In this document: positions 12,943 through 27,286 of the stretch, piece after piece
Position numbering within the stretch: position 1 is the stretch's first letter
How the letters are laid out: the number at the start of each line of letters is the position of its first letter
Origin: Nitrospirota bacterium
GTDB taxonomy: Bacteria > Nitrospinota_A > UBA7883 > JACRGQ01
Direction: 5' to 3'
Assembly (NCBI GenBank): GCA_024275955.1
Contig: JAJRYD010000044.1
Location: 62,001 to 126,000, forward strand
DNA: 64,000 bases
The notes under the pieces: model-generated
What the model saw: the letters and a program-made list of their open reading frames with translations, nothing else
Database searches by the model: none
Told to the model about the DNA's origin: nothing
Made by a program: the position numbers and the translations under genes

Positions 12943-13364
12943 GAAAGACAACCTCTTTCTGCTTTTACCAGTATTCTTGTTCTAAGCGGAAGCTTCATGG
13001 CACCAAGACGCAAAGCCTCTTTTGCTACTTCTACCGTCACTCCGCCCATTTCGAAAATAACTCTTCCCTGCTTAACCCTCGCGACCCACTGCTCAGGAGA
13101 ACCTTTACCTTTACCCATTCTTACTTCGGCAGGCTTTTTTGTAATCGGCTTATCTGGAAACAGCCTTATCCAAACCATTCCACCACGCTTAGCATGCCTA
13201 GTAATGGCAACACGCGCCGCCTCTATCTGCCTGTCGGTAATCATGCCGGGGTCTAAGATCTGAAGCCCGAACTCGCCAAAGCTTATTTTGGAGCCTCGAT
13301 AAGCGATACCCCTGTTTTTCCCTTTTTGGCGTTTTCTGTGTTTGACTTTTTTAGGACTAAGCAT
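12939..13364 (-). CDS. rplP: Ribosomal protein uL16
   Basis: Protein of 141 residues opening [20 protein letters not shown], with the [18 protein letters not shown] and [20 protein letters not shown] blocks. It lies at the A-site/5S rRNA contact of the 50S. It overlaps the end of rpsC by 8 bp. Confidence 0.98.
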
Positions 13365-14076
13365 CTTTTGCCTGTTTCTTCGCTTTACGTTTTACAGGTT
13401 TCTTTGCTTTGGACGCTTCATTTTCCTGAACATTTTCCTGACGGTGCTTTATGATTTCGCCATGAAATATCCATACTTTTATCCCTATAATTCCAAAAGT
13501 AGTCGCCGCTTCCGCTACACCGTAATCAATATCGGCGCGCAATGTATGAAGCGGTACTCTGCCCTCTCTGTACCATTCTGTCCTAGCTATTTCGGCGCCG
13601 CCAAGTCTTCCAGCGCAATTTACCCGAATGCCTTTGGCTCCAAACCTCATAGTCGTGCCGACAGACTTTTTCATAGCCCTTCTAAACGCAACACGCCTCT
13701 CAAGCTGTAACGCTATATTTTCGGCTACAAGCTGAGCGTCAATCTCTGGACGACGAACCTCTTTGATGTTTATAGAAACTTCCTGAGTAGAGCCGAGAAG
13801 AACCTGAAGCTGTCTTTTAAGGCTGTCTACTTCAGAGCCTTTCTTTCCTATGATTATGCCGGGCCTTGAAGTAAATATATTTATTTTTATCTGCTTGGCT
13901 CGTCTTTCAATAACAACTTTAGAAACTCCCGCATGCCCAACACGCTTTTTAAGAAACTTCCTTACTTTCAAGTCTTCGTGAAGCTGACTCGCGTAATTCG
14001 CTTCAGAAAACCAGCTGGAAAACCATGGTTTAACTATTCCAAGTCTGAACCCTATAGGATTTGTTTTCTGCCCCAA
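13357..14076 (-). CDS. rpsC: Ribosomal protein uS3
   Basis: Protein of 239 residues opening [14 protein letters not shown]. It carries a KH domain with the [11 protein letters not shown]-type loop ([14 protein letters not shown]) and the C-terminal GVKGIRV-like [20 protein letters not shown]. It lies at the mRNA entrance, where it contributes helicase activity. The last 25 residues form a lysine/alanine-rich tail related in style to the much longer tail on rplV. Confidence 0.97.
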
Positions 14077-14090
14077 ACCTGTTCCTTCCC

Positions 14091-14681
14091 TTACTTCTTT
14101 TTAGGCGAAGACTTTTTGACCGTCTTCTTGGTTGTAGATTTCGTAGCCGCCTTCTTCTCTGTTTTCTTGGCCGCAGGCTTGACCGTCTTTTTTGCCGTCT
14201 TCTTGGCTGTAGATTTCGTAGCTACCTTCTTTGTTGTTTTCTTGGCCAGAGATTTTGCCGCCTTCTTTGCAGTTTTCTTGATAGCAGGCTTAGTAGCCTT
14301 GACCGGCACCTTTTTCGCACTTTTGTTCACCGGCTCTTCTTCGACACTGTTTCCATCGGAGAGAACAACTGTGATATGACTTAAGTTCTTATGCAAAACA
14401 TCTGCCCTGCCTCTGGCTCTTGGGAACATCCTCTTGATTATAGGACCTTTGTCTACGAAGATTCTCTCTATCGTCATCTCATCCGGGTCTGGAACGTTTC
14501 TGTCCTCCGCGTTCGCACGGGCGCTTTTAATAACCTTTTCTATTAACCGCGCAGGCTTTTTGGGAGTGAACTGAAGAATACTAAGCGCGTCGGTCACTTT
14601 TTTTCCACGCACGAGGTCGGCCACAAGGCGGGCTTTTTGCGCCGACATCCTTATATGCTTTGCTTTAGCTATCGTTTCCAT
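14091..14681 (-). CDS. rplV: Ribosomal protein uL22 with long histone-H1-like tail
   Basis: First gene of the operon. The first 110 or so residues are normal uL22 ([40 protein letters not shown]), which lines the exit tunnel and contacts all 23S domains. The remaining 80 or so residues are a low-complexity lysine/alanine/threonine tail built of KKTAKK, KSTAKK and KPAAKKT units, giving 196 residues against the usual 110. The DNA of the tail is internally repetitive. The ribosome binding site is AGGA five bases before the ATG, and a strong promoter lies 60 bp upstream. Confidence 0.95.
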
Positions 14682-14912: not shown

Positions 14913-16340
14913 TTATTTTTTCCCAAACCAGAACTTAGTGAACGTAGCGATAGCCCCGCTAAAGAGCTTTTCCCTGTAATACTGGTCTGCCCCCCTTTTG
15001 ACGATTTGGCCCATAGTTGGATATACATGGATGGTGCCGGATATCTTTTGCACAGGTATTCTGTTTGCCATTGCCAGTGCGTATTCGTGTATAAGATCCC
15101 CTGCGTTAGCGCCAAGTATATGCGCCCCAAGTATCTGTCCTTTTTTGTCGCAAACCAGCTTGACCAGCCCTTCGGTGGCATCCTCTATCACCGCTCTGTC
15201 ATGGTCTTTATAGTTATAGCGGTAAATTTTTATTTTATCGCCGTAAAGCTCTCTCGCCTCGGATTCCAGCATACCGACTCTTGCCAGTTCCGGGTCGGTA
15301 AAAGTGCACCACGGCACGACCCTCGTATCAACCTTCCGCCTAACAAGAGGAAAAAGGGCATTGGATATAACTATTCCAGCCGTATACTCGGCCATATGTG
15401 TAAACGGAAGCTTTCCGGTTACATCTCCGCAGGCGTAGATATGAGGCACTGTGGTTCTAAGGGTATCGTCAACCGTAACACCGGAACGGCTTGTTTCCAC
15501 TCCAATCCCTTCGAGGTTTAGCCCCTCTATATTTGGGCTTCGCCCCACCGCGACAAAAAGGCTCTCCGCGCTAAACTTTCTCGCTATTTTTTCCTGCCCA
15601 CAATAGGCACTCAGCGCTATTTTTCCATCTTCGATTCTAATGTTTTCTATTTCGGAACAGACCTTCACCAAAAGCCCTTCCCTCACTGTTGTTTCATGCA
15701 AAATCTTGGTCAGTTCGATATCCTCTCTTGGGAGGATTCCAGTCGCCTTATCGAATACCGTAACTCTGCAACCAAAGCGGGTGAACATCTGGGAGTATTC
15801 AAGCCCTATCGGGCCTGCGCCAAGAGTCAGCATAGACTCGGGCAAAGTTTTGAGTTCGAGCATCGACTCGTTATTTAGATACGGCACATTCTCAAGCCCC
15901 GGTATCGGAAGCTTGGCAGGCCTCGACCCTGTAGAAACAAGAAACTTTCTCGCCCGCAATTCCTTACCTTCCACGATAAAGGTATTTGAATCTTTAAACC
16001 TTCCGGAACCGAAAAAAACATCAATTCCCATCTTCCTGAAACGCTCAGGGTCGTCGTGGACAGATATAGCCGCGCGGACATCACGCATCCGCGCCATTAC
16101 GCGCGAAAAATCGAGCTCGGCATTCTCTACGTTGATACCGAATTTTCTAGCGTTTTTAATGTTGTGGTAAAGCCTTGAAGAGTGGATTAGCGTCTTGGTA
16201 GGAACGCAACCGTAGTTAAGGCAGTCGCCGCCCAGCATTCTTTTTTTCTCAACAAGCGCGACCTTCGCTCCAAACTGCGCCGAACCGCTGGCAGTAACAA
16301 GACCGCCGACTCCGCCGCCGATTATTACAATGTCATACAT
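14913..16340 (-). CDS. MerA/dihydrolipoamide-dehydrogenase-like flavoprotein disulfide reductase
   Basis: A 475-residue class I pyridine-nucleotide disulfide oxidoreductase. The FAD-binding GGGVGG (8-13), the redox-active pair C40/C45 in GGDCLNYGCVPTK, the NAD(P)H-binding GAGPIGLEYSQ and the second FAD motif YACGDVTG are all present, followed by the dimerisation domain. The catalytic HPTxxE of true lipoamide dehydrogenases is replaced by Y440-P-T-M-G-Q445, so the acid/base dyad is missing. From family knowledge MerA also has Tyr there, but this protein has neither the N-terminal metal-binding domain nor the C-terminal vicinal cysteines of MerA. No 2-oxoacid dehydrogenase genes are nearby. The substrate is unknown. 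Confidence 0.85.
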   Translation of the reverse strand: MYDIVIIGGGVGGLVTASGSAQFGAKVALVEKKRMLGGDCLNYGCVPTKTLIHSSRLYHNIKNARKFGINVENAELDFSRVMARMRDVRAAISVHDDPERFRKMGIDVFFGSGRFKDSNTFIVEGKELRARKFLVSTGSRPAKLPIPGLENVPYLNNESMLELKTLPESMLTLGAGPIGLEYSQMFTRFGCRVTVFDKATGILPREDIELTKILHETTVREGLLVKVCSEIENIRIEDGKIALSAYCGQEKIARKFSAESLFVAVGRSPNIEGLNLEGIGVETSRSGVTVDDTLRTTVPHIYACGDVTGKLPFTHMAEYTAGIVISNALFPLVRRKVDTRVVPWCTFTDPELARVGMLESEARELYGDKIKIYRYNYKDHDRAVIEDATEGLVKLVCDKKGQILGAHILGANAGDLIHEYALAMANRIPVQKISGTIHVYPTMGQIVKRGADQYYREKLFSGAIATFTKFWFGKK

Positions 16341-17222: not shown

Positions 17223-18062
17223 CTAGATGCCTGCGGGAATTTCCCAGCCAAGCTGTCTTAGTATCGCAGGAAGCGGTTGCCCTGTCTGCACGCGAAGAGC
17301 CTTTGCTATATGGAACTCTGAACGGGCTATAAAACCTCTCTTAACAAGCTTGCCGACTCTGCGGCTCTCAAAAAACCGTACAACAACGTGCTTTAAGGCT
17401 CGGCCCTCCTTCTCTATTTTTTTAAGAATATTTTTTGCGTTGCGCCTGTTTATGTTTTGTAGTGCGTTCACGGCGGCACATGCTATTTTTATATCTTCAT
17501 TGCGTAGATACGTTTCAAGTATCTTCACCGAGCCTTTATGATCTACAAGACCTAGACAAAAAATTATCTCCGCCACAAGATACGGCTCGGCAACTTTTAA
17601 CTCACTTTCAAAAATAGCCAGCGCTTCAAAACCATGACAGATAGCCAAAGCCCTCGCCGCCTGCTTTTTGACAAACCCGTTGCTGGACTCGAAAAACCGC
17701 AAACGCAATTCCTCAAACGACAACGAAGATACCCGCGCGTCTACATACCCGCCGCGATAAACCTTTCGCTTGCGCGACCGCTCTCTGGCAGATGCTCTTT
17801 TGGGCAACTTTTGGAAAAATGTAACCTTTGCCACGAAAGCGGCAAAAGCAGTTTGCCACCTCTTTGGTTTTTTAAGGCCAAGGCTCTTATAATGTTTTTG
17901 TATCTCGTGATATGCCTTTACCGTATCTTTGAATTTATCGGTATCGCCAATGCCGTCATTAGAATCGGGGTGATAACGCAGAACAGCCTTTCGATACGCA
18001 TTTTTTATTTCTGCCATATCGGCTCCGGGCTTTACCCTAAGAATAGAAAAATAATGGTTCAT
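17223..18062 (-). CDS. J-domain protein with HEAT-like repeats and MshEN-like tail
   Basis: A 279-residue cytoplasmic protein. Residues 1-65 are a J domain (YFSILRVKPGADMAEIKNAY, HPD motif in YHPDSN), which would stimulate a DnaK-type ATPase. A basic linker follows, then HEAT-like helical pairs (KKQAARALAICHGFEALAIF; LVAEIIFCLGLVDHKGSVKI; IACAAVNALQNI). The last 40 residues (KRGFIARSEFHIAKALRVQT, then PAILRQLGW) resemble the N-terminal helical module of GspE/PilB-type ATPases that can bind c-di-GMP. There is no G/F or zinc region, so it is not DnaJ itself. Its role is unknown. Its promoter shares the -35 with the divergent ABC operon. Confidence 0.75.
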   Translation of the reverse strand: MNHYFSILRVKPGADMAEIKNAYRKAVLRYHPDSNDGIGDTDKFKDTVKAYHEIQKHYKSLGLKKPKRWQTAFAAFVAKVTFFQKLPKRASARERSRKRKVYRGGYVDARVSSLSFEELRLRFFESSNGFVKKQAARALAICHGFEALAIFESELKVAEPYLVAEIIFCLGLVDHKGSVKILETYLRNEDIKIACAAVNALQNINRRNAKNILKKIEKEGRALKHVVVRFFESRRVGKLVKRGFIARSEFHIAKALRVQTGQPLPAILRQLGWEIPAGI

Positions 18063-27210: not shown

Positions 27211-27286
27211 GGGGCCGTAGCTCAGTTGGGAGAGTGCTTGACTGGCAGTCAAGAGGTCGTCGGTTCGATCCCGACCGGCTCCACCA
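27211..27286 (+). tRNA. tRNA-Ala, anticodon GGC
   Basis: A 76-nt cloverleaf. The acceptor stem GGGGCCG pairs with CGGCTCC (one G-T), and the D arm is GCTCAGTTGGGAGAGT. The anticodon stem CTTGA/TCAAG encloses the loop CTGGCAG with anticodon GGC, which reads GCC and GCU. The T arm is TCGTCGGTTCGATCCCGACCG-like, and the 3' CCA is encoded. It stands alone, not in an rRNA operon. Confidence 0.97.

Follow-up and report, generated by a model that had tools for sequence, protein, structure and literature searches.

A lysine-rich C-terminal extension of ribosomal protein uL22 in every sampled genome of a Nitrospinota_A class

To what does a ribosomal protein owe a long, lysine-rich tail, and what might such a tail do on the ribosome? 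The question is raised by rplV, the gene for ribosomal protein uL22, in a Nitrospirota bacterium (assembly GCA_024275955.1; GTDB lineage Bacteria; Nitrospinota_A; UBA7883; JACRGQ01), where it lies on a 64,000-nucleotide stretch of contig JAJRYD010000044.1 (positions 62,001 to 126,000), which we will henceforth refer to as the window and in whose coordinates positions are given. We found that the protein joins an ordinary uL22 core to a C-terminal extension, that such an extension is present in all 23 genomes of the class that we sampled, that the tail in the window carries an in-frame duplication, and that in one genus of the same family the tail is under constraint.

uL22 core and tail

The rplV open reading frame (ORF; 14091–14681, minus strand) encodes 196 amino acids from an ATG start. 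Its core (residues 1–108; 14358–14681, minus strand) contains the complete L22 domain: the Pfam profile Ribosomal_L22 (PF00237) aligns with residues 5–108 over model positions 1–104 of 104, scoring 130.8 bits against a cut-off of 28, and the NCBIfam profile rplV_bact (TIGR01044) scores 131.9 bits against a cut-off of 73.65. With a complete domain above the curated cut-off, the protein belongs to bacterial uL22, whose core sits at the polypeptide exit tunnel. It does not belong to the fusions of L22 with an unknown domain (NF008917 / PRK12279), as its 88.5 bits with that model fall short of the cut-off of 526.

The C-terminal extension (residues 109–196; 14094–14357, minus strand) begins with a short acidic stretch, DGNSVEEEP, and continues as a polycation rich in lysine, alanine and threonine, with a net charge of +27. 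Specifically, the 88 residues past the Pfam domain comprise 32 lysines (36%), 14 alanines, 13 threonines, seven each of serine and valine, five prolines, four glutamates, two asparagines, and one each of aspartate, glycine, isoleucine and leucine; acidic residues thus number five and arginine is absent. The protein therefore has a lysine-rich C-terminal extension of more than 20 amino acids, as is the case in mycobacteria. Both the existence of the tail and its Lys/Ala/Thr-rich composition had been claimed in a model-made reading of the same DNA (henceforth the original prediction), and both hold in an unbroken frame; we place the tail start at 14357, by the domain boundary, whereas the earlier span of 14091–14340 corresponds to residues 115–196 plus the stop codon. 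That stop codon (14091–14093, minus strand) lies 14 bases ahead of the start of the next gene, rpsC, at 14076. AlphaFold, run on an alignment of the window protein and three relatives, gave a pLDDT of 88–95 for blocks of the core and of 35–50 for blocks of the tail, in which it placed a single helix of four residues; from this shallow, four-sequence alignment the tail is predicted to be disordered.

Tails across the class

The original prediction had proposed tail length among relatives as a check, and we compared it in 23 genomes of the class (G000–G022, G000 being the genome of the window). All 23 encode a uL22 tail, of 27–101 residues and 21–36% lysine, with a net positive charge in 22; in G003 and G017, where rplV is split over contig ends, the full tail was taken from the second piece. 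Most of these tails have their acidic residues first and their basic ones afterwards, and no motif common to them was found by eye. By contrast, nine of the 30 best uL22 matches come from outside the class, and their ends measure 1–7 amino acids. The one genome of the same phylum outside the class (G023) gave no L22 match. As controls we examined the C-termini of uL16 and uS3 at the same loci in 22 of the 23 class genomes (all except G013). The end of uL16 is a constant 13 residues in the 21 genomes whose gene ran to its stop, and the ends of uS3 measure 22–57 residues and reach at least 20% lysine in one genome of 22, namely that of the window (31 residues, 29% lysine). As a separate observation, two contig ends of G003 (L010 on C317 and L042 on C271) carry overlapping 3′ parts of rplV that differ in a few tail residues, perhaps through strain variation.

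A frameshift or misassembly within the repetitive DNA, which the original prediction named as a finding that would undo it, is extremely improbable as the origin of the tail, and we consider it ruled out. The tail is not an artefact because the frame is unbroken, the stop adjoins rpsC and all 23 class genomes are tailed. In addition, third codon positions have a similar G+C content in the core (0.52) and the tail (0.56), the repeat unit described below is 75 nt long and in frame, and the family model for the uS3 protein encoded next is matched from the first residue on (positions 1–210 of 212). What speaks for an artefact is the splitting of rplV over contig ends in two of the 23 genomes, as repeats may cause such splits; the break in G017, however, falls in the core of rplV, outside the tail.

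Tail growth by segment duplication

Tandem Repeats Finder detected a duplication within the tail (14115–14280, minus strand) with a period of 75 nt, 2.2 copies and 81% matches, i.e., 25-codon units, in frame, with two complete copies and part of another. When the tail is compared with itself 25 codons along, identical codons are found at 19 of 37 positions, compared to a mean of 9.7 when synonymous codons were shuffled within the tail, and none of 10,000 shuffles reached 19. Since codons match beyond this expectation, the repeat is an in-frame duplication of DNA and not merely the product of a biased protein, and it is clear that the tail in the window grew by duplication of a DNA segment.

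We then applied a codon-run test over all offsets to 29 tails (23 from the class and six from outside it). A signal was found in two, the window's own (25 codons) and that of G022 (14 codons), with 0 of 400 shuffles matching in each case, whereas the other 27 tails gave no codon-level duplication signal in this test (G016 came closest, with 35 of 400 shuffles). Growth by duplication is thus clear in the window and not visible in most other tails. The original prediction had attributed the repetitive DNA to expansion by slippage: expansion in tandem is borne out here, while the length of the unit is more like the outcome of segment duplication or unequal recombination than of short-motif slippage, and the signal is confined to those two tails.

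Comparison with known extensions and lysine-rich tails

To place the tail among known systems, we searched the protein against solved structures with phmmer. Chain S of PDB 5v7q (197 aa), which we take to be Mycobacterium tuberculosis uL22, aligned over its positions 13–192 with window residues 3–184. The two proteins share the core family and are of nearly equal total length (197 vs. 196 aa), but the tails align through low-complexity sequence, which need not reflect homology. Further matches to solved uL22 were PDB 8crx and 5o60 (153 aa each) and PDB 7ood (159 aa), of which the latter two are presumably from M. smegmatis and Mycoplasma pneumoniae, respectively.

PDB 8crx is the Cutibacterium acnes structure, as supported by an excerpt of PMC10085706, where the authors call the 43-residue C-terminal extension of C. 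acnes uL22 visible and exposed to solvent and a similar extension in M. smegmatis disordered. Both are about half as long as the window tail. By analogy with the C. acnes protein, the C-terminus in the window would face the solvent, which agrees with the original prediction. Ribosomal protein extensions are, according to an excerpt of PMC9534751, common throughout bacteria with largely elusive functions; in M. pneumoniae they are found on 11 of 52 ribosomal proteins, and disrupting them affects fitness or survival. Lysine-rich, low-complexity tails have also evolved independently on eukaryotic ribosomal proteins other than uL22 (works cited in an excerpt of PMC11764897); these resemble the window tail in composition and sit on different ribosomal proteins.

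We also surveyed 37 outside-class loci among the matches listed, picked for frames of at least 140 or for long matches, so that the counts give no estimate of prevalence (G286 was left out and G042 was already represented by L028). Ends of at least 20 residues were found in 13 of the 37, seven of which are at least 20% lysine and some of which are acidic. Lys/Ala-rich stretches past the L22 core also occur in a Planctomycetota and a Campylobacteraceae metagenome-assembled genome (MAG). The window tail is therefore a further case of a known, recurrent uL22 extension and reveals by itself no new kind of system; what the class offers is a natural series, with tails of 27–101 residues in 23 of 23 genomes, in which to ask whether length or charge matters. 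Two other observations concern this survey and these MAGs: long uL22 ends outside the class can be negatively charged (L085, 98 aa, net −12; L089, 69 aa, net −4), and the uL22 of the Campylobacteraceae MAG (L059 2992–3621) carries a helix-hairpin-helix domain (PF14520, residues 146–181, 29.3 bits against a cut-off of 27) after its Lys/Ala-rich stretch.

Possible function of the tail

We propose, with a probability of roughly one half, that the tail is a lineage-wide, disordered, polycationic extension on the solvent face of the 50S subunit that touches RNA loosely and thereby aids assembly or stability. Judging from the position of the solved C. acnes uL22, it would emerge from the core at the solvent face and sweep the adjacent 50S surface, where it may make loose, non-specific electrostatic contacts with ribosomal RNA (rRNA) of its own or of neighbouring ribosomes; such contacts would most likely help the 50S subunit to assemble or to remain stable. 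Tail length would shift readily, as it did in the window when part of the coding sequence was duplicated in frame, with the basic composition mostly retained.

Constraint on the tail was assessed in g6, a sister genus of the same family (four genomes, six pairs). The ratio of non-synonymous to synonymous substitution rates (dN/dS) is 0.12–0.39 for the tail (dN 0.08–0.39, dS 0.49–1.44) and 0.04–0.09 for the core (dN 0.020–0.028, dS 0.23–0.60), and the final 14 tail residues are invariant across all four genomes. Constraint on the g6 tail is thus weaker than on the core, yet the tail does not look free. Several points nevertheless weigh against our proposal, among them that these tail ratios come from only 57–58 compositionally biased codons per pair and that the core slices include a few codons ahead of the start. 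Strong positive charge is not universal in the class, as the tail of G012 has a net charge of −1 and a lysine fraction of 0.21. Tail length varies almost fourfold, and G006, whose uL22 is the best match among the relatives (64% identity), has only 27 amino acids; this variation counts against a specific structural role. As for the solved relatives, the excerpt of PMC10085706 also places the C. acnes L22 C-terminus among the parts without density, and the M. pneumoniae L22 extension adopts secondary structure and could be modelled in an in-cell map (excerpt of PMC9534751), in contrast to the predicted disorder of the window tail.

The main rival to a role in RNA contact is that the tail is baggage, i.e., that a solvent-exposed uL22 end accumulates duplicated Lys/Ala codons whose charge is simply harmless near rRNA, with nothing selected. 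We consider this possible, if on balance unlikely. The spread of lengths, the lack of any conserved sequence seen across the class and the clear duplication in the window all speak for it, and lysine-rich ends also occur in the seven of 37 outside-class loci, picked as they were for long frames or matches. On the other hand, tail dN/dS is below 1 in all six g6 pairs with the last 14 residues unchanged, and tails are found throughout the class, compared to ends of 1–7 amino acids in the nine best-matching outside-class loci. Less likely, and to us doubtful, is that the tail serves at the tunnel exit as a site for docking or modification, recruiting nascent-chain factors or membranes or being tuned by lysine acetylation: uL22 does adjoin the tunnel exit by homology, and the acidic start and basic continuation of most class tails would suit such a site, but no class-wide motif was found by eye and nothing points to a partner.

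Comparably improbable is a histone-H1-like role, in which the tail would bind DNA or polyphosphate and tether translating ribosomes to the nucleoid, much as the C-termini of AlgP and PhaF are thought to act with granules. HctB, likewise not a ribosomal protein, has a similar Lys/Ala-rich, disordered, H1-like C-terminal region in which the number of repeats varies. In an excerpt of PMC9239181, AlgP, which is not a ribosomal protein, has a Lys/Ala-rich, disordered C-terminal region with a changing number of repeats, and a fragment of this domain binds DNA. The likeness to histone H1, HctB and AlgP asserted in the original prediction thus stands as regards composition, and kinship is not supported: KPAA repeats, an AlgP feature according to the same excerpt, are absent from the translated window tail, and searches with the tail alone found no match among solved chains at 1e-5 and, in its own genome, only rplV itself at E-values up to 1 (both weak tests, the query being of low complexity). 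Kinship with a histone-like gene of the same genome was accordingly rejected, within the limits of that low-complexity query. Moreover, RNA is far nearer and more abundant around the ribosome than DNA. Finally, the tail might be an RNA-binding element that lets uL22 repress or time the operon to which it belongs, in place of a control that went missing with the split of the S10 cluster (see below). This we regard as very unlikely: S19 lies just upstream in 10 of 10 examined outside-class loci with uL22 extensions. A search of the whole window against Rfam at gathering thresholds returned a single match, a tRNA at 27211–27283, with no RNA leader found ahead of rplV.

Gene neighbourhood of rplV

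In the window, rplV heads a ribosomal run in the order L22, S3, L16, L29, S17, L14, L24, L5, S14, S8, L6, L18, S5 and L15, so that its usual downstream genes (rpsC, rplP, rpmC and so on) are in place. The first of these, rpsC (13357–14076, minus strand), has a TTG start, and its uS3 product matches NCBIfam rpsC_bact with 312.5 bits over residues 1–210 of 239. Upstream, the place held by rpsS (S19) in the outside-class loci examined is occupied by a FAD/pyridine-nucleotide-disulphide oxidoreductase (14913–16340, minus strand; assigned by Pfam). The usual order of rpsS ahead of rplV, which does not define the family, is therefore missing here, and membership in uL22 stands on the domain.

No S19 match was found upstream of rplV in any of the 23 class genomes, with 1.2–1.5 kb seen upstream, whereas S19 lies just upstream in all 21 outside-class loci examined (two of them from Desulfovibrio MAGs that closely resemble each other). 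Of the 23 class genomes, 20 yielded an S19 match, always on a contig other than that of rplV, including in the four-contig genome G011 (in the window's own genome at G000:C2:22147-22389); the other three gave no match. Given the absence of S19 upstream and its presence on another contig, it seems that the class descends from an ancestor in which the S10 cluster had come apart between rpsS and rplV, leaving rplV at the head of its ribosomal run. Because S19 is kept upstream in the 10 extended outside-class loci mentioned above, the tail does not need this split, and we rejected a general rule tying the tail to loss of S19. The ten comprise eight of the survey's 13 loci with ends of at least 20 residues, plus the Planctomycetota and Campylobacteraceae MAGs (L064, L079, L082, L085 and L092 were left out of the S19 test).

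Among class loci, an oxidoreductase match upstream of rplV was also found in G006 and in no other, and the remaining upstream ORFs differ among families, as judged by eye. Farther upstream in the window lies a gene for a DnaJ-domain protein with a HEAT match (17223–18062, minus strand), a 50% identical homologue of which is found just upstream of rplV in G002 (L003 54–878), so that a DnaJ-domain gene is near rplV in both genomes.
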